Assembly (NCBI RefSeq): GCF_027921845.1
Contig: NZ_BSEN01000015.1
Location: forward strand, 124,001 to 188,000
DNA length: 64,000 bases
From: Leifsonia poae
GTDB lineage: Bacteria > Actinomycetota > Actinomycetes > Actinomycetales > Microbacteriaceae
Reading direction: 5' to 3'
Under the pieces are notes generated by a model, which saw only the letters and a program-made list of their open reading frames with translations, had not been told where the DNA came from and did not search any database. Position numbers and translations under genes: made by a program. Within the stretch, counting starts at the first letter, position 1. Each line of letters opens with the position of its first letter. This document shows positions 3,162 through 52,865 of the stretch, one piece after another.

Positions 3162-3191
3162 GCTCTGCGCGAGCAGCGCCTCCCGAGACGA

Positions 3192-3225
3192 CGAAGCCGC
3201 CGGACAATGGCGTCCGGCGGCTTCG
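3192..3225. terminator. terminator hairpin between convergent genes
   Basis: A perfect 14-bp stem (3192-3205 with 3212-3225) closes a 6-base loop between the phosphate transporter operon and the convergent uracil permease. It can serve both strands; there is no long T tract. Confidence 0.75.
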
Positions 3226-3260
3226 CCGTCATCAGGGGTTCGTCCCTGGGCGGTGCGGTG

Positions 3261-13162: not shown

Positions 13163-14701
13163 CTACGCCGAAGCCGCGCGCCACAGGTGCATTCCTGCAT
13201 AGCTGCGCCACGGCGCCCAGCTCGCGCCGTGCGCGGCGAGGGCGCGTGCCTCGGACGGCAGCCCGAGCTTGGCCGCCCCCTGCCGGATGGCCAGGTCGCT
13301 CGTCAGCAGGATGTCCGGGCTTCCCAGCACGCGCATCGCGACGTAGCCGGCCGTCCACGGTCCGATGCCCGGCCGCGCGACCAGACGGGCCTCGAGCTCC
13401 TCGCGCGACTCGCCGACGTCGATGACCAGGTCGCCCGTCGCGAGCGCCTCCGCCGTCGCGACGATGGCGTCGACGCGCTTCGCCGGCCCCCTGAGCACCT
13501 CACGACCGTGCTCGGCGATGGCGGCCGCGGTCGGGAACAGACGGGTGAAGCCACCGAGGGCGATCGGCTCGCCCAGTGCCTCGGTGAGCCGAGTGAGTGC
13601 CGTGCGGGCGGCCGGCACCGACACCTGCTGGCCGATCAGGGCACGGAACAGGATCTCGTCGGCGTCCACCGCACCCGGCACGCGACGGCCGGGAGCAGCC
13701 GCGACGCTCGCCGCGAGAGCGGGATCGGCGGCCAGGGCGTCGTCGATGGCCTGCGCGTCGGCGTCGAGATCGAGCAGGCGCCGGATGCGGGCGACGAGCG
13801 GTGCGAGGTCGGCGACATCCGACAGTGTCGTGTCGCACAGCACATGCGGCGCGGACGCGGTGCCGCCGAGCGTGAGGCGGACGGTCGCGGGACCGTGCGG
13901 CAGCGCGATCGCCCGCGCGTAGGTGCCGTCTCCGCCGAGCTCGGCGCCGGCGATCGACCGTGCCGTGAGGAAGCCGAGGAGAGCGGCTCCGTCGAACGGC
14001 GCACGCGCGGGCAGGCGCAGCGACAGGGTCGCGTCGCCCGTCGCGTCGCCCGTCGCGTCGTGGTGGCCGCCCGGCGCACGCTTCGTGCCCGACCGGCGCG
14101 CGGCGGCGGATCGGATGTCGCCGGGCGTCGTTCTGTAGATGTCGGCCATCGTCTCGTTGAACTGGCGAACGCTCGTGAACCCCGCGGCGAACGCGACGTC
14201 GGTGATCGACAGGTCGGTGCCGGCCAGCAGCAGGCGGGCGGTCTGTGCGCGGTGCGCACGGGCGAGGGCGAGGGGACCGGCGCCGAGCTCGGCGACGAGC
14301 ACCCGGCCGAGATGCCGCGGTGTGTAGCCGAGGCGGTGGGCGAGGCCGGGGACGCCTTCGCGCTCGACGGTGCCGTCGGCGATCAGCCGCATGGCGCGGG
14401 CGGCCAGGTCGTCGCGCATGTTCCACTCGGGCGACCCCGGCACGGCATCCGGCAGGCATCGTTTGCACGCACGCAGCCCGGCTTCGTGGGCGGCCGCTGC
14501 GGTCAGGTAGAAGGTGACGTTCGACGGCTTCGGCGAGACCGCCGGACAGCTGGGGCGGCAGTAGATGCCGGTGGAGTGCACGCCGGTGATGAACTGGCCG
14601 TCGAAGCGCGCATCCCGGGCGCTCATGGCGCGGTAGCGCTCGGCGAACACCGGATCGTCGAACTCCTCCGGCCGCTCCAGGGCTGCGTGTGCACTGCTCA
14701 T
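13163..14701 (-). CDS. Ada-AlkA fusion: methyl-sensing regulator plus DNA-3-methyladenine glycosylase
   Basis: A 512-residue alkylation-damage protein. Residues about 15-90 form the Ada N-terminal zinc domain with ligands C48, C52, C79 and C82; C48 is the expected methyl acceptor from phosphotriesters. An AraC-type helix-turn-helix follows (about 95-200). The rest is AlkA-like: an N-terminal domain, then a helix-hairpin-helix glycosylase with [11 protein letters not shown] and the likely catalytic Asp469 in TSDLAIRQG. The Ada methylguanine-DNA methyltransferase domain is absent. A 12-base unit is repeated near 14029-14060 and encodes ATGD repeats in the linker. It is probably autoregulated from the divergent region 14702-14926. 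Confidence 0.9.
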
Positions 14702-14801
14702 GCGCCCAGCCTGCCACCGCCCGCCGACATCCGATAGCGGATTTCGGACATCACCCGCGCGCCCCCGCCCGCCCGCCCCGCCCCGCCCCCCGAGCCCACT
14801 T

Positions 14802-14867
14802 CAATCGAGTCCGAACTTGTTGCGACGACACGCCGAGGCTGCGGTGCAACAACTTCGGACTCGATTG
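14802..14867. repeat. intergenic palindromic element, copy A
   Basis: Two 22-base arms (14802-14823 and 14846-14867) pair at 21 of 22 positions around a 22-base loop. The left arm begins CAATCGAGTCCGAACTTG. The only mismatch is C-C (14816/14853). A C-rich run precedes it (about 14759-14797). It lies in the divergent gap between the Ada-AlkA gene and the flavoprotein gene. The same element occurs at 33492-33567, and a variant at 29951-30007. Confidence 0.85.
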
Positions 14868-14926: not shown

Positions 14927-16318
14927 ATGGATGTTCTCGACTGGCTCAGGGCGGCACTCGGCGACGAGGCGGTCGCCTCGGGAGTGCTCAGCACGGATGA
15001 CGCCGAGCTGGAGGCAGCTCGCACCGACCGCTCCGGATGGATCGCCGACGGCCGGCCGCTGGCCGTCGTGCACGCCACCACCGTCGAGCACGTACAGGCG
15101 ACCCTCCGGGCGGCGAGCGAGTTCCGCGTGCCCGTCGTGCCCCGCGGCGCCGGCACCGGCCTCGCCGGCGGCGCGAACGGCACCGACGGCTCGATCGTGC
15201 TCAGCGTCACCGGGATGAACCGCATCGTCGAGATCTCGGCCGACGACGAACTCGCCGTGGTGGAGCCCGGCGTGATCAACGCCGACCTCAACGCCGCCTT
15301 GGAGCCCTTCGGACTCTGGTTCGCGCCCGACCCGGCGAGCAAGGCGATCTCGACCGTCGGCGGAAACATCGCGACCAACGCGGGCGGTCTGCTCTGCGCC
15401 AAGTACGGCGTGACGCGCGAAGCCGTGCTCGCCCTCGATATCGTGCTGCCGGATGGACGGCTCATCAGCACCGGCCACCGCACCGTCAAAGGCGTCACCG
15501 GCTTCGACATCACCGCCCTGTTCGTCGGCTCGGAGGGGACCCTCGGCGTGATCGTCGGGGCCACGGTGCGGGTGCTCCCGATCCCGCCCGGTGTCCCGAC
15601 CACGATCGGCGCCCTGTTCCCGGATGTGCGCACCGCCGCCGGCGCCGCGGCGCGGGTCACCGCGTCACGGCTGCGCCCTGCGGTCATGGAGATCCTCGAC
15701 GGCCCCTCGCTCGAACGCATCTCGGCCTACCTGGGCGAGCAGGTCATCGCCGAGGCGTTCGGCGTCACCCACGGCGGCAGTTACCTGCTCACCCAGTTCG
15801 ACGGGCTCTCGGCGGCCGACGACGCCGAAGCGGCCGCACAGGTCATCCGGGAGGCCGGGGGCACCGTCGAGGTCTCCGTCGACGCCGAGGCCGGCGAACG
15901 GCTGCTGGCGATCCGCCGCGCCTTCCATCCGGCGCTCGCCGCCACGGGCGAGGTGCTGATCGAGGACGTCTCGGTCCCGCGCTCCCGGATGGCCGAGATG
16001 TTCGCGGCGATCGAGAGCATCTCCGCGCGGCACGGCATCGCGATCCCGACCGTGGCGCACGCCGGCGACGGCAACCTGCACCCCAACTTCGTCTACAGCG
16101 GTGACGTCGTGCCGGAGGCGGTCTGGGACGCCGCGAACGACCTCTTCCGCACGGCCATCGAGCTCGGTGGCACGCTGACGGGCGAGCACGGGGTCGGCGT
16201 GCTCAAGCGCCGCTGGCTGGCCGACGAGCTCGGGCCGGACTCCTACGATCTGCAGGTCAAGCTCAAGTCGGTGTTCGACCCGCTGGGCATCCTGAACCCG
16301 GGCAAGGTGTTCGGCTGA
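14927..16318 (+). CDS. FAD-linked oxidase, GlcD/D-lactate dehydrogenase type
   Basis: A 463-residue flavoprotein of the vanillyl-alcohol-oxidase fold, related to the glycolate oxidase subunit GlcD and D-lactate dehydrogenases. The FAD-binding domain is marked by VPVVPRGAGTGLAGGAN, KAISTVGGNIATNAGGL and VGSEGTLGVI; the C-terminal cap has the metal/substrate histidines in VAHAGDGNLHPN and ends with GILNPGKVFG. It should oxidise a 2-hydroxyacid such as glycolate or D-lactate and pass electrons on. No GlcE/GlcF partners are adjacent, so it may act alone. ATG 14927 follows TAGAGT (14914-14919) by seven bases, a leaderless pattern. Confidence 0.9.
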   Translation: MDVLDWLRAALGDEAVASGVLSTDDAELEAARTDRSGWIADGRPLAVVHATTVEHVQATLRAASEFRVPVVPRGAGTGLAGGANGTDGSIVLSVTGMNRIVEISADDELAVVEPGVINADLNAALEPFGLWFAPDPASKAISTVGGNIATNAGGLLCAKYGVTREAVLALDIVLPDGRLISTGHRTVKGVTGFDITALFVGSEGTLGVIVGATVRVLPIPPGVPTTIGALFPDVRTAAGAAARVTASRLRPAVMEILDGPSLERISAYLGEQVIAEAFGVTHGGSYLLTQFDGLSAADDAEAAAQVIREAGGTVEVSVDAEAGERLLAIRRAFHPALAATGEVLIEDVSVPRSRMAEMFAAIESISARHGIAIPTVAHAGDGNLHPNFVYSGDVVPEAVWDAANDLFRTAIELGGTLTGEHGVGVLKRRWLADELGPDSYDLQVKLKSVFDPLGILNPGKVFG

Positions 16319-16336: not shown

Positions 16337-16374
16337 ACCCCGCGCGGCCGGTGAAAGGTCCGGCCGCGCGGGGT
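16337..16374. terminator. terminator between convergent genes
   Basis: A perfect 15-bp stem (16337-16351 with 16360-16374) and an 8-base loop between the flavoprotein gene and the convergent esterase gene. Confidence 0.75.
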
Positions 16375-21264: not shown

Positions 21265-21298
21265 GAAGGCCCCCGTCCGGTTTCGGATGGGGGCCTTC
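21265..21298. terminator. terminator between FKBP and AhpD-like genes
   Basis: A 15-base stem (21265-21279 with 21284-21298, one wobble pair) and a GTTT loop, between convergent genes. Confidence 0.75.
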
Positions 21299-28153: not shown

Positions 28154-29295
<1,142 letters not shown>

Positions 29296-29296
<1 letters not shown>

Positions 29297-29925
29297 TGAC
29301 CGCCAGGAAGATCGCCGTCGTCTCCGGCGGCCTCAGCCAGCCGTCGTCCACCCGGCTGCTCGCCGACCGGCTCGCGGAGGCGACCGTACGTCGCCTCACC
29401 GAGCAGGGCGTCGAGGTCGAGGTGCAGACGATCGAACTGCGCGACACCGCGAAGGACGTCACGAACAATCTGCTCGCCGGATTCCCGAGCCCGGCGCTCG
29501 CCGACGTGATCGAGACCGTGACCGGCGCCGACGGCCTCATCGCCGTCAGCCCGATCTTCACGACGAGTTACAGCGGGATGTTCAAGTCGTTCTTCGACGT
29601 GATCGACCCCACGGCGCTCGACGGGATGCCGGTGCTGATCGGCGCCACCGGCGGAACGGAGCGGCACTCGCTCGCGCTCGACTACGCGATGCGCCCGATG
29701 TTCACCTACCTGCACGGTGTCGTCGTGCCGACCTCCGTGTACGCGGCCTCGGCCGACTGGGGGAGCGGCGCTGACACGGTCAAGGCGCTGCCCGACCGCA
29801 TCGAGCGGGCGGCGGGGGAGTTCGCCGCGCTGGTGAGCGCGTCGGACCGCAGCTCGATGGTGAAGGACCCGTTCGCGCTCGAAGGCGACTTCGGCGCGAT
29901 GATCGGCGGCTTCTCCATCGAGTAG
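29296..29925 (+). CDS. NAD(P)H-dependent FMN reductase (CE1759-type)
   Basis: A 209-residue flavodoxin-like reductase. It begins with KIAVVSGGLSQPSSTRLLADRL, where the SSTR turn binds flavin phosphate, and has VSPIFTTSYSGMFKSFFDVI, the FMN-reductase active-site region. The ATG shares its A with the upstream TGA stop (29294-29296), ensuring coupled translation with the monooxygenase. GTG 29293 is an alternative start. The 101-base gap that follows contains a palindromic element (29951-30007). Confidence 0.9.
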
Positions 29926-29950: not shown

Positions 29951-30007
29951 CGAGTCCGGGAGAAATCGGCCGGATCATGCGATCAGGCGCGACTTCTCCC
30001 GGACTCG
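29951..30007. repeat. intergenic palindromic element, variant copy C
   Basis: Arms 29951-29968 and 29990-30007 pair at 17 of 18 positions around a 21-base loop. The outer part (GAATCGAGTCCG starting at 29948; right CGGACTCG) matches copies A and B, but the inner arm is GGAGAAATCG instead of AACTTGTTGC, and both arms have changed together. It ends eight bases before the -10 of the next gene. Confidence 0.75.
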
Positions 30008-30026: not shown

Positions 30027-30803
30027 ATGGGTGAGACCGTGGTGAAGGAGCGGGCGGATGCTCCGACGAGGTTCTTCGAGGCGGAGGCGGCCGGGCTCGA
30101 GTGGCTCGCCGAAGCGATCGACCGGGGCGGAGCCCGCGTGGTCGAGGTGATCGACGTAGCGCCCGGCCGGATCGAGCTGGAACGCATCGAGGAGACCCGG
30201 CCGACGCCGGAGGCGGCCCGCGCGTTCGGCGCCGCGCTCGCGATCACGCACGCGTCGGGCGCGGCAGCCTTCGGTGCCCCGCCCGACGGCTGGGACGGCC
30301 CGCTGTTCATCGGCAGGCGTCCGCTGCCCGCCGCCCACGAGACGTCGTGGGGCCGCTTGTATGCCCGCGACCGCATCCTGCCGTACCTCGACATCGCCGT
30401 GGATGCCGGCGGAGTGACGTCGGAACAGCTTCCGGTCATCCGGGAGGCCGTCGACCGGATCGCGTCGGGAGCCCTCGACGACGACGAGCCGCCGGCACGC
30501 ATCCACGGCGATCTCTGGAACGGCAACCTGCTCTGGGACGCCAGGGGCGGCATCCTGATCGACCCGGCGGCGCACGGCGGCCACCGCGAGACCGACCTGG
30601 CGATGCTCCAGCTCTTCGGTGCGCCGTACCTCGACGCGATCGTTTCCGGTTACGACGGGGAGGTGCCACTGAGATCCGGCTGGCGCGACCGCATCCCGTT
30701 GCACCAGCTGCACCCGCTCGTCGTGCACGCTGCCTCGTACGGGCCGTCGTACGGCCGGGCGCTCGCCGATGCGGCGCGCGCGACGCTCGCTCTGCCGGAT
30801 TGA
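30027..30803 (+). CDS. fructosamine kinase family protein
   Basis: A 258-residue kinase-fold protein of the fructosamine-3-kinase/ketosamine kinase family, which phosphorylates sugar-protein adducts (ribulosamines or erythrulosamines in bacteria) so that they fall apart. The catalytic motif HGDLWNGN starts at His160, and the metal-binding aspartate is in LIDPAAHGGHRETDLAM. The N-terminal lobe is short but has the lysine-containing KERADAPTRFFEAEAAGLEWL. ATG 30027 lies six bases after TAGATT (30015-30020), which itself follows palindromic copy C. Length is slightly below the usual 280-290 residues. Confidence 0.9.
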   Translation: MGETVVKERADAPTRFFEAEAAGLEWLAEAIDRGGARVVEVIDVAPGRIELERIEETRPTPEAARAFGAALAITHASGAAAFGAPPDGWDGPLFIGRRPLPAAHETSWGRLYARDRILPYLDIAVDAGGVTSEQLPVIREAVDRIASGALDDDEPPARIHGDLWNGNLLWDARGGILIDPAAHGGHRETDLAMLQLFGAPYLDAIVSGYDGEVPLRSGWRDRIPLHQLHPLVVHAASYGPSYGRALADAARATLALPD

Positions 30804-31120: not shown

Positions 31121-33418
31121 TTGGAAGGTCCCGAAATCAAATTCGCCGAAGCCGTTCTCGACAACGGACGCTTCGGCACCCGCACGGTCCGGTTCGAAGC
31201 CGGACGCCTCGCACAGCAGGCACAGGGCGCAGTCGCCGCCTACCTCGACGAGGAGACCATGCTGCTGAGCGCGACGAGCGCCAGCAAGCACCCGAAGGAC
31301 AACTTCGACTTCTTCCCGCTGACCGTCGACGTCGAAGAGCGTTCGTACGCCGCCGGCAAGATCCCCGGCTCGTTCTTCCGTCGTGAGGGCCGCCCCTCGA
31401 CCGAGGCGATCCTCGTCTGCCGTCTCATCGACCGCCCCCTGCGCCCGTCGTTCGTCGACGGCCTCCGCAACGAGGTGCAGATCGTGATCACCGTCCTGAG
31501 CATCGCTCCGGACGAGTTCTACGACGCGCTCGCGATCAACGCGGCGTCCATGTCGACCCAGATCTCCGGCCTGCCGTTCAGCGGCCCGATCGGTGCGGTG
31601 CGCCTCGCGCTCATCCCCGGCAACGGTGCTGCTGAAGACCAGTGGATCGCATTCCCGAAGGCGTCGCAGCTGGAGGAGGCCGTCTTCGACATCGTCGTCG
31701 CCGGTCGAGTGATCACCGACGCCAACGGCAACGAAGACGTCGCGATCATGATGGTCGAGGCGGAAGCGACCGAGGGCAGCTGGAACCTGATCCAGGGCGG
31801 CGCCACCAAGCCGAACGAAGAGGTCGTGGCCCAGGGCCTCGAGGCCTCGAAGCCGTTCCTCAAGCAGCTCGTCGCCGCTCAGAACGTGCTCGCGCAGCAG
31901 GCCGCCAAGGACATCGCCGAGTACCCGGTGTTCCTGCCCTACTCGCAGGAGACCTACGACAACGTCGCCGGCCTCGCCTACGACGAGCTCGTGAACGTCT
32001 ACCAGATCGCCGACAAGATCGAGCGCCAGAACGCCGACGACGCCCTCAAGGAGCGCGTCAAGACGGCTCTCACCGAGAAGGTGGAGGCCGGAGTGCTCGA
32101 CGCCGAGGTGCTCACGCAGTTCTCTGCGGCGTACAAGTCGGTCTCGAAGGTCGTCATGCGCGGCCGCGTGCTGCGTGAGGGCATCCGTATCGACGGTCGT
32201 GGCCTCACCGACATCCGTCCGCTCGACGCCGAGGTGCAGGTCATCCCGCGCGTTCACGGCTCGGCGATCTTCCAGCGCGGCGAGACCCAGATCCTGGGTG
32301 TCACCACGCTGAACATGCTCAAGATGGAGCAGCAGATCGACTCGCTGTCGCCCGTCACCAAGAAGCGCTACCTGCACCACTACAACTTCCCGCCGTACTC
32401 GACCGGTGAGACCGGCCGCGTCGGTTCGCCGAAGCGTCGCGAGATCGGGCACGGCTTCCTCGCCGAGCGCGCGCTCGTTCCGGTTCTGCCGAGCCGCGAG
32501 GAGTTCCCGTACGCGATCCGCCAGGTGTCCGAGGCTCTCGGCTCCAACGGTTCGACGTCGATGGGTTCGGTCTGCGCCTCGACGCTGTCCCTGCTGAACG
32601 CCGGTGTGCCGCTGCGCGCCCCGGTCGCCGGCATCGCCATGGGCCTCATCTCCGACACCGTCGACGGTGAGACCCGCTACGCGGCGCTCACCGACATCCT
32701 CGGTGCAGAAGACGCGCTGGGCGACATGGACTTCAAGGTCGCCGGTACCAGCGAGTTCGTCACGGCCATCCAGCTCGACACGAAGCTCGACGGCATCCCC
32801 TCGGCTGTGCTCGCGGGTGCGCTCAAGCAGGCGAAGGATGCTCGTACGACCATCCTGAGCGTGCTCAACGCCGCCATCGACCAGCCCGACGAGATGGCTC
32901 CGACCGCGCCCCGCGTGATCTCGGTGCAGATCCCCGTCGACAAGATCGGTGAGCTGATCGGCCCGAAGGGCAAGACGATCAACGCGATCCAGGACGAGAC
33001 CGGCGCCGACATCTCGATCGAGGAAGACGGCACCGTGTACATCGGCGCCGTCGACGGTCCGTCGGCCGAGGCTGCCCGTGCCCAGGTGAACGCGATCGCG
33101 AACCCCACCAACCCGGAGGTCGGCGAGCAGTTCCTCGGAACCGTCGTCAAGATCGCCGCGTTCGGTGCGTTCGTCTCGCTGCTGCCCGGCAAGGACGGCC
33201 TGCTGCACATCTCCGAGGTGCGCAAGCTCGCCGGTGGCAAGCGCGTCGAGAACGTCGAAGACGTGCTCAACGTCGGCCAGAAGATCCTGGTCGAGATCAC
33301 CAAGATCGACGACCGTGGAAAGCTGTCGCTCGCTCCGGTGCTCGCAGAGGCCGACGACGCCGACACCCACGGGCGCGACGCCGCCAGCGAGGGCCCGGAG
33401 GCTCCCGCAGAAGGCTAG
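31121..33418 (+). CDS. pnp: polyribonucleotide nucleotidyltransferase (PNPase)
   Basis: A 765-residue 3'-5' phosphorolytic exoribonuclease that degrades and tails RNA as a ring-shaped trimer. Two RNase PH domains occupy about residues 1-215 and 310-560 with an all-helical domain between; the second contains the active-site region [19 protein letters not shown] domain (about 590-655: [18 protein letters not shown]) and an S1 domain (about 665-735: [21 protein letters not shown]) follow. The start is TTG 31121, nine bases after AAAGGAG; no ATG or GTG fits the conserved N-terminus. In actinobacteria this enzyme was also called GPSI. Confidence 0.97.
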
Positions 33419-33435
33419 TCCTCACCCGCACCACC

Positions 33436-33470
33436 CGGATGCCCGTGCAGCCTCGCTGCGCGGGCATCCG
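33436..33470 (+). terminator. terminator after pnp
   Basis: A 16-bp stem (33436-33451 with 33455-33470, one wobble pair) and a CTC loop, 17 bases after the pnp stop. Confidence 0.75.
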
Positions 33471-33491: not shown

Positions 33492-33567
33492 CACTGCGAT
33501 CGAGTCCGAAGTTGTTGCTCGCGACACGCCGTACTGGGGTGCAACAAGTTCGGACTCGATCGCAGTG
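33492..33567. repeat. intergenic palindromic element, copy B
   Basis: Two 27-base arms (33492-33518 and 33541-33567) pair at 26 of 27 positions around a 22-base loop. The left arm contains ATCGAGTCCGAAGTTGTTGC. The single mismatch (G-G, 33511/33548) is at the same arm position as the C-C mismatch in copy A. The loops of A and B share GACACGCCG and end in GGT before GCAACAA. It lies between the convergent pnp and lrp-type genes, just after the pnp terminator. Confidence 0.85.
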
Positions 33568-33574
33568 CCGGGGC

Positions 33575-34045
33575 TCAGCGGGCGGCGTCGCGGGCGAGCA
33601 GCGGGTGCAGGCGGAACGGGATGAGCTCGCCCATGTCGAGCGCCGTCTCGGCGCGCTCCACGCCGTCGCAGGCCTGGATGGCGCCCGTGATGCGGAACAG
33701 GTCCTCGGCGTCGACGCAGACCACGCGCACGAGCAGATCCGAGGGGCCGCTCAGGCCGTGGGCCTGCACGATCTCCGGGATGGTCGCCAACTGCTCGACG
33801 ATGGCGGCGAGCTTCTGCTGCTGCACGTGCACCGTCACGAACGCGGCCAGCGGGTAGCCGGCGGCGTGCGCGCTGATCCGGCGGTCGAACGACAGGAAGA
33901 CGCCGGAGCGCTCGAGAGCGGCGACGCGCGCCTGCACGGTGTTGCGGCTGAGACCGAGACGGTCGGCGATGGTCACATTGGTCGCGCGCGGGTCGTCCGT
34001 GAGCGCCACGAGGATGCGCCGATCGGTGCTGTCGATGGTGGGCAT
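33575..34045 (-). CDS. Lrp/AsnC-family transcriptional regulator (BkdR-like by position)
   Basis: A 156-residue feast/famine regulator. An N-terminal helix-turn-helix (about residues 5-55: DRRILVALTDDPRATNVTIADRLGLSRNTV in separate helices) is followed by the RAM effector domain (about 68-145: AAFVTVHVQ, then PSDLLVRVVC). It is divergent from a branched-chain 2-oxoacid dehydrogenase operon; Lrp-type BkdR activates such operons in Pseudomonas, so control by a branched-chain amino acid is the best guess. ATG 34045 lies seven bases after TAGGTT (34058-34053). An open frame continues far upstream but only in antisense to the operon. Confidence 0.93.
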   Translation of the reverse strand: MPTIDSTDRRILVALTDDPRATNVTIADRLGLSRNTVQARVAALERSGVFLSFDRRISAHAAGYPLAAFVTVHVQQQKLAAIVEQLATIPEIVQAHGLSGPSDLLVRVVCVDAEDLFRITGAIQACDGVERAETALDMGELIPFRLHPLLARDAAR

Positions 34046-41398: not shown

Positions 41399-41428
41399 AA
41401 GAACGGGCCCCCGCGGGGGCCCGTTCTT
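41399..41428. terminator. terminator after the DUF3117 gene
   Basis: A perfect palindrome with 15-base halves (41399-41413 and 41414-41428), beginning AAGAACGGG and ending CCCGTTCTT, followed by TCGT. It also suits the convergent methyltransferase gene. Confidence 0.85.
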
Positions 41429-52823: not shown

Positions 52824-52865
52824 ACGCAGCGAGCCCCGTCCTGGTGAGGACGGAGCTCGCTGCGT
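52824..52865. terminator. terminator between the transglycosylase-like and RNA helicase genes
   Basis: A 19-base stem (52824-52842 with 52847-52865, one mismatch) and a GGTG loop. An AAA run on the left gives a U-run for the minus-strand helicase transcript. Confidence 0.8.

Follow-up and report, generated by a model that had tools for sequence, protein, structure and literature searches.

The evidence supports a dispersed, REP-like palindrome family with a conserved loop in the genome of the soil bacterium Leifsonia poae (G000; 4.07 Mb in 15 contigs). Three intergenic palindromes, copies A, B, and C, lie in the window, the whole 64,000-nt stretch analyzed (G000:C15:124001-188000). Copies A and C are members of F1, a REP-like family spread in Leifsonia and its relatives, and copy B is from a sister family, F2, with a common outer arm. 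The reading favored here, with moderate confidence, is a REP-like miniature palindrome that is recognized as DNA by a putative factor and kept at gene ends, with some copies maybe serving as terminators.

A first-pass annotation of the window had described three palindromes with arms of 18-27 nt, near-perfect pairing, and loops of 21-22 nt in divergent, tandem, and convergent gaps, with a C-rich tract adjoining copy A. The palindromes and the tract are present, and our own gene calls confirm the three contexts (Table 1). That annotation had also seen one design in all three sites. The outer arm is indeed common to all, but two families are present: A and C have common arms CGAGTCCGAASTTGTTGC and the loop motif, whereas B shares only the outer CGAGTCCG with them, has the inner arm GGAGAAATCG, and is without the motif. 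The conserved loop motif is a feature absent from the annotation; CGACACGCCG stands at a fixed place after one arm.

Table 1. Palindromes, loop motifs, and neighboring genes in the window.
Feature	Position	Strand	Remark
Copy A, F1 palindrome	14802..14867	.	divergent ada-alkA / FAD-oxidase gap
Loop motif CGACACGCCG, copy A	14826..14835	+	kept in two alignments of relatives
C-rich tract beside copy A	14754..14790	+	within DNA missing from G007 and G004
Copy B, F2 palindrome	29951..30007	.	tandem gap, 25 nt past FMN-reductase stop
Copy C, F1 palindrome	33492..33567	.	convergent pnp / lrp gap
Loop motif CGACACGCCG, copy C	33522..33531	+	
Ordinary loop-3 terminator-like hairpin of pnp, distinct from copy C	33436..33470	+	
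pnp (polynucleotide phosphorylase)	31121..33418	+	Pfam
Lrp/AsnC-type regulator gene, convergent to pnp	33575..34045	-	Pfam
ada-alkA fusion gene	13163..14701	-	Pfam
FAD-linked oxidase gene	14927..16318	+	Pfam
FMN reductase gene, upstream of copy B	29293..29925	+	Pfam
Fructosamine-kinase-like gene, downstream of copy B	30027..30803	+	Pfam

Copy A has 22-nt arms (14802-14823 and 14846-14867; 95% complementary) around a 22-nt loop (14824-14845). Copy B pairs CGAGTCCGGGAGAAATCG with CGACTTCTCCCGGACTCG over 18 nt with one mismatch, around a 21-nt loop (29969-29989). Copy C has 27-nt arms (33492-33518 and 33541-33567) and a 22-nt loop (33519-33540), and 7 nt separate it from the lrp stop. The RNA fold z-scores are -6.5 for copy A, -6.9 for copy B, and -8.4 for copy C. 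Rfam gave nothing at gathering score in the window, nothing except a tRNA in five relative loci, and only sub-threshold microRNA-type hairpins in the pnp-lrp gap. Ordinary short-loop hairpins are found in convergent gaps of the window at 3187-3230, 16337-16374, 21265-21298, 41399-41428, and 52824-52865; these five are probably the normal terminator type of the genome.

The arms-only pattern CGAGTCCGN{25,55}CGGACTCG occurs at 35 places in the 4.07 Mb, against 0 for the reversed pattern. Nineteen are F1 (CGAGTCCGAASTTGTTGC or close variants), 15 are F2 (CGAGTCCGGGAGAAATCG or close variants), and one is unrelated. The F1 covariance model gives 22 distinct sites at E<=1e-3 and 2 more with weaker scores. 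The F2 model gives 33 sites at E<=1, of which 16 form a weaker third family brought in by the models, F3 (CGAGTCGGGGATTAATCACG). The loop word GACACGCC is present at 16 of the 19 F1 sites, whose detection did not rely on the loop, and at 0 of the 15 F2 sites. Stem plus loop mostly measure 57-80 bp, up to about 100, with loops of about 20 nt. F3 also occurs in close pairs 100-130 bp apart (C1:454448/454550, C6:278708/278831, and C6:565976/566103), which resemble BIME clusters.

Some copies lie against an assembly gap or the end of a contig, a point in favor of chance palindromes or assembly artefacts. That explanation is refuted by the control (35 against 0) and by copies in single-contig relatives, and its probability is negligible. 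Assembly gaps or a contig end are found at palindromes C1:2008, C1:99446, and C7:82. The F1 site C1:99446 is the same as copy C plus one flank, then runs into Ns at an assembly gap, and is possibly a scaffolding or assembly artefact.

Placement was read from genes called with our own home-made codon-model caller (coding 90% of 424 kb), whose starts and small genes may be wrong. By these calls, none of 56 classified sites (22 F1, 16 F2, 16 F3, and 2 weak matches) overlaps a gene by more than 20 nt, and one overlaps by 14 nt. Convergent gaps, about 23% of intergenic positions in the loci analyzed, hold 16 of 22 F1 sites (3 divergent, 3 tandem), 9 of 16 F2 sites (6 tandem, 1 divergent), and 6 of 16 F3 sites (7 tandem, 2 divergent, 1 at a contig end). 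In tandem gaps, 57 non-repeated palindromes, a list that includes relatives and non-family palindromes and has repeats of a loop core removed, lie at a median of 21 nt from the upstream stop and 70 nt from the downstream start. Most sites are at gene 3' ends; copy A is one of the few in divergent gaps. In the wider list including relatives, the palindromes inside gene calls are two non-family ones of L. poae and one site of G040, where the upstream gene call extends into the palindrome.

The F1 model matches 19 of 28 genus genomes at E<=1e-4, own genome included. G013, G018, and G007 are examples of palindrome-rich congeners, and G006 and G008 of congeners without an F1 match. In most relatives, the stems are changed yet paired and CGACACGCCG is retained. 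Over 30 sequences from relatives, two-sided changes are seen at 23 of 24 pairs, a count reached by 0 of 500 shuffles, and 90.3% of cells pair (35-44% with the partner slid), although these sequences came from a model expecting pairing and are support, not independent proof.

Beyond the genus, a diverse-set model matches 33 of 398 family genomes (10 of 85 genera) and 15 of 396 order genomes, own included (13 of 110 genera); in these searches 12 candidates per genome were scored and the model includes the loop word, which biases breadth and motif constancy. Other genera have the same loop word on other stems. Among 35 measured matches outside the genus, many have near-perfect stems of 20-30 bp, about a dozen have stems of only 10-16 bp and may be chance, and six are without the nine-letter motif. 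A possible reading of this spread, advanced only tentatively, is an order-wide miniature hairpin DNA with the near-invariant loop word CGACACGCCG and stems of essentially any sequence homogenized per genome, which would be recognized via loop plus structure and spread by a non-Y1 enzyme. If true, it would be a REP-like system whose mover is not Y1. The palindrome of G040 recurs in a record of L. shinshuensis (L174). Among phages, six viral contigs fit the arm-plus-motif pattern, their stems not exceeding 9 bp, and a second pattern has no match. The copy A region matches plasmids only at E 0.7, and window positions 1-25000 have two phage matches, both inside called genes.

Individual sites are gained and lost. 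By tblastn, ada-alkA and the FAD-oxidase gene are neighbors in 24 of 26 relatives, and an F1 palindrome is found at the copy A locus in none of the 26; G001 and G009 have unrelated shorter palindromes. The gap measures 225 nt in L. poae, 76 nt in G007 and G004, and 92 nt in G006, and the C-rich tract belongs to the extra DNA of L. poae. The genes flanking copy B are together in 2 of 12 relatives, G004 having a short gap without a palindrome and G007 an unrelated palindrome. The boundaries at empty sites are not clean, and no target duplication was noticed by eye. The first-pass annotation had read the palindromes as dispersed, intergenic, and REP-like, and had suggested a covariance-model search of the genome and relatives. 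Further copies were found in both, and the arms-only count, the intergenic placement, the pairing conservation, and the presence and absence between species support its reading.

Many sites are old. A palindrome is present at the same place in G007 for 12 of 20 G004 sites. Of 49 L. poae sites, which include a few palindromes outside the families, 10 (9 distinct loci) are shared with G007 and 6 with G004, for which only 20 loci were compared. At 3 further L. poae sites, both flanks lie in one G007 locus without a palindrome. Three aligned sites have F2 in L. poae and a motif-bearing type in G007 and/or G004, the outer arm being identical or almost so. In 13 of 15 orthologous pairs, the loop keeps its orientation to the flanks; the orientation is inverted in one pair and ambiguous in one. 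At the apparently orthologous loci L264 (G007) and L276 (G004), the loop letters are nearly equal and the orientation to the flanks is opposite, as would follow from a flip of the loop between the inverted arms.

Close copies are also present within genomes. About 0.5 Mb separates the G004 palindromes L276 and L279, which have 2 differences in 60 positions, and F3 copies on L. poae contigs C6 and C10 have an identical central 21 nt. Neighboring sites in G018 (L320) and G041 (L325) have 1-2 differences in the central 21 nt among the matches listed; such low counts between centers are partly due to the common motif and arms. The copies of one genome mostly have different loops; with the doubtful copy C duplicate left out, a single pair among 1431 in L. 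poae has identical centers.

The pnp-lrp gap was read by pairing alone in 27 genus genomes, the 28th being truncated at a contig end. In 25 of the 27, an ordinary hairpin (loop 3-5 nt) stands right after pnp. In 11, L. poae included, there is also a large-loop palindrome like copy C at the lrp end, with several different stems among the genomes; seven of these have GACACGCC (again with L. poae), one has a one-base variant, and three have none. Three more genomes have other large-loop palindromes, and 13 are without any at the threshold used. The gap of G002 holds a degenerate copy by eye, though below threshold. Because all 11 carriers keep the ordinary hairpin, copy C is an addition to the gap rather than the terminator of pnp; the lrp transcript could still end there. 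Other palindromes or repeats occupy the gap in G016, G019, G042, G011, G021, G003, and L177, among them CATTCGTGACGAATG (three times in G016), the CGCCGAGACGGCG types, and CCGCCGAGTACGC. The gap seems to tolerate palindromes of several families.

In tandem gaps, the loop has the same orientation as the genes at 20 sites and the opposite at 17, a count that includes some sites twice; the recount without repeated loop cores is 16 to 15. Mismatches on the motif strand are nearly balanced, with 25 G-T and 31 A-C among 1746 pairs in 97 elements. Orientation and mismatch symmetry fit a DNA-level or two-strand constraint, not a one-strand RNA. A strand-specific mRNA element was rejected, as orientation is random and the mismatch spectrum symmetric. 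A replication-polar element was likewise rejected: the best G041 matches looked polar, but in five single-contig genomes 86 of 148 sites are leading (p 0.058, not significant; terminus taken opposite dnaA, with about 150 of 339 strand-wise matches among those listed).

The binding site of a chromosome-organizing or other DNA-binding protein would agree with the sequence-specific arms, the loop motif, and the lack of gene-strand bias. This explanation is improbable given the gain and loss at single sites, the several arm families per genome, and the lack of a significant replichore bias. We know of no binding site of this sequence.

A host-functional two-way terminator or 3'-end hairpin, selected on both transcripts, with a loop-reading host factor and co-evolving arms, would account for the convergent and 3'-end position, the very stable folds, and the sites shared by descent, and if both strands folded, G-T and A-C mismatches would also be expected in equal numbers. 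In three pooled genomes, an ordinary short-loop hairpin is present in 6 of 71 convergent gaps with a large palindrome and in 15 of 61 without (Fisher p 0.016), which favors this explanation and supports, against the pnp case, some stand-in terminator role. We nevertheless consider it rather unlikely. At pnp, the palindrome is extra beside the ordinary hairpin in all carrier species, and copy A lies in a promoter gap between divergent genes. With the F1 model, no copy is found in 9 of 28 genus genomes, including G006, whose PNPase segment is 99% identical; another of the nine, G016, is matched by the broader model. A TTTT run within 12 nt of the stem, read outward on either side, is found at only 2 of 54 F1-F3 sites. 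Terminators need neither a conserved loop word nor a given arm sequence. The ordinary terminators of the same genomes (window, pnp) also follow stop codons but have loops of 3-9 nt and gene-specific stems, whereas in the palindromes the loops measure about 20 nt and the arms recur at many sites. Judged from sequence, termination by part of the copies is plausible. As a caution, gene-end hairpins in these genomes are not all ordinary terminators.

The preferred reading, a REP-like palindrome recognized as DNA and kept at gene ends, implies a mover. We infer movement in trans and DNA recognition. A putative trans-acting protein would recognize the element as DNA via the arms plus the loop word and would place new copies in intergenic DNA. 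Copies would survive mainly just past stop codons, where the hairpin may be harmless or act as a two-way terminator. Such sequence-specific recognition would give near-identical arms within a genome, mostly varying loops, and arms that differ between species. Several results weigh against this reading: the search for Y1_Tnp gave no mover, the solo arms examined gave no element ending in these arms, loops within one genome are mostly different, many sites are old, and empty sites have unclean boundaries with no target duplication noticed.

Proteobacteria supply the best-described REP-like repeats, and classical REPs go with a single enzyme family; the present family, with its constant loop and freely changing stems, is from high-G+C Gram-positive bacteria, with no such enzyme found. 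This makes two questions testable: what moves REPs without RAYT, and how the stems of hairpins at dozens of gene ends come to change together. Like REPs and REPINs, the palindromes are short, dispersed, and extragenic, with several families per genome and 3'-end, convergent, or same-direction placement. REPs lie mostly between convergent or same-direction genes, downstream of genes, and their ends can supply a stop codon (PMC3733652); by eye, the palindrome in G007 appears to supply that of lrp. The word Actinobacteria is absent from the main text of that paper.

A canonical REP/REPIN moved by RAYT would share the dispersed extragenic palindromes and their placement at 3' ends, but is very improbable here. 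The loop is larger and has a fixed internal word, and the GTAG tag occurs within 6 nt of the stem foot at 1 of 54 sites (CTAC at 0). The first-pass annotation had raised a TnpA-REP partner, which did not hold up: Pfam Y1_Tnp (PF01797), the sole enzyme family examined, has 0 matches in L. poae and 0 in 24 congeners, with 1 of 40 genomes searched positive and 5 of 14 control genomes positive. As the tag is nearly absent and no RAYT was found, both being defining marks of classical REPs, the palindromes are not filed as REPs, though REP-like in behavior. CGTC-tagged REPs are also reported without a dedicated transposase (PMC3733652), a likeness to these palindromes, for which no transposase was found. 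Those REPs are tagged at the stem end, whereas the constant word here is in the loop; near the stem foot, CGTC occurs 4 times and GACG 2, only 6 matches over 54 sites.

Hairpins of uptake signals in Neisseria and Pasteurellaceae pair a repeated word in tail-to-tail gaps (PMC1852404), and the palindromes resemble these hairpin terminators in both respects. Uptake words generally occur 1,000 times or more (PMC1852404). The arm word TCGAGTCCGRRV, by contrast, occurs 113 times in L. poae, mostly paired among the matches listed, and a DNA uptake signal was rejected, as the very many unpaired copies were not seen. No description of this hairpin family was found in the literature searched, in which subscription journals were few. 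As literature text, the loop word gave a primer match in Desulfovibrio (PMC3409199).

Two sources of an autonomous element were considered. Insertion sequence ends were sought from 12 solo arm 11-mers among the matches listed: none of the 12 belongs to a full-length element ending in these arms, 11 share nothing beyond the arm, and one is a copy truncated by the Ns of an assembly gap. As for a flanking autonomous gene, 11 genes enclosed between neighboring palindromes were compared, and the only matches among them are three orthologous pairs; with no gene common to the set, this source was rejected. One gene stands between two palindromes at the same place in L. poae (L041:6662-7737) and G004 (L329:3013-4141), with differing arm families. 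The two proteins are 51% identical and are presumably DUF559-like, judging by eye.
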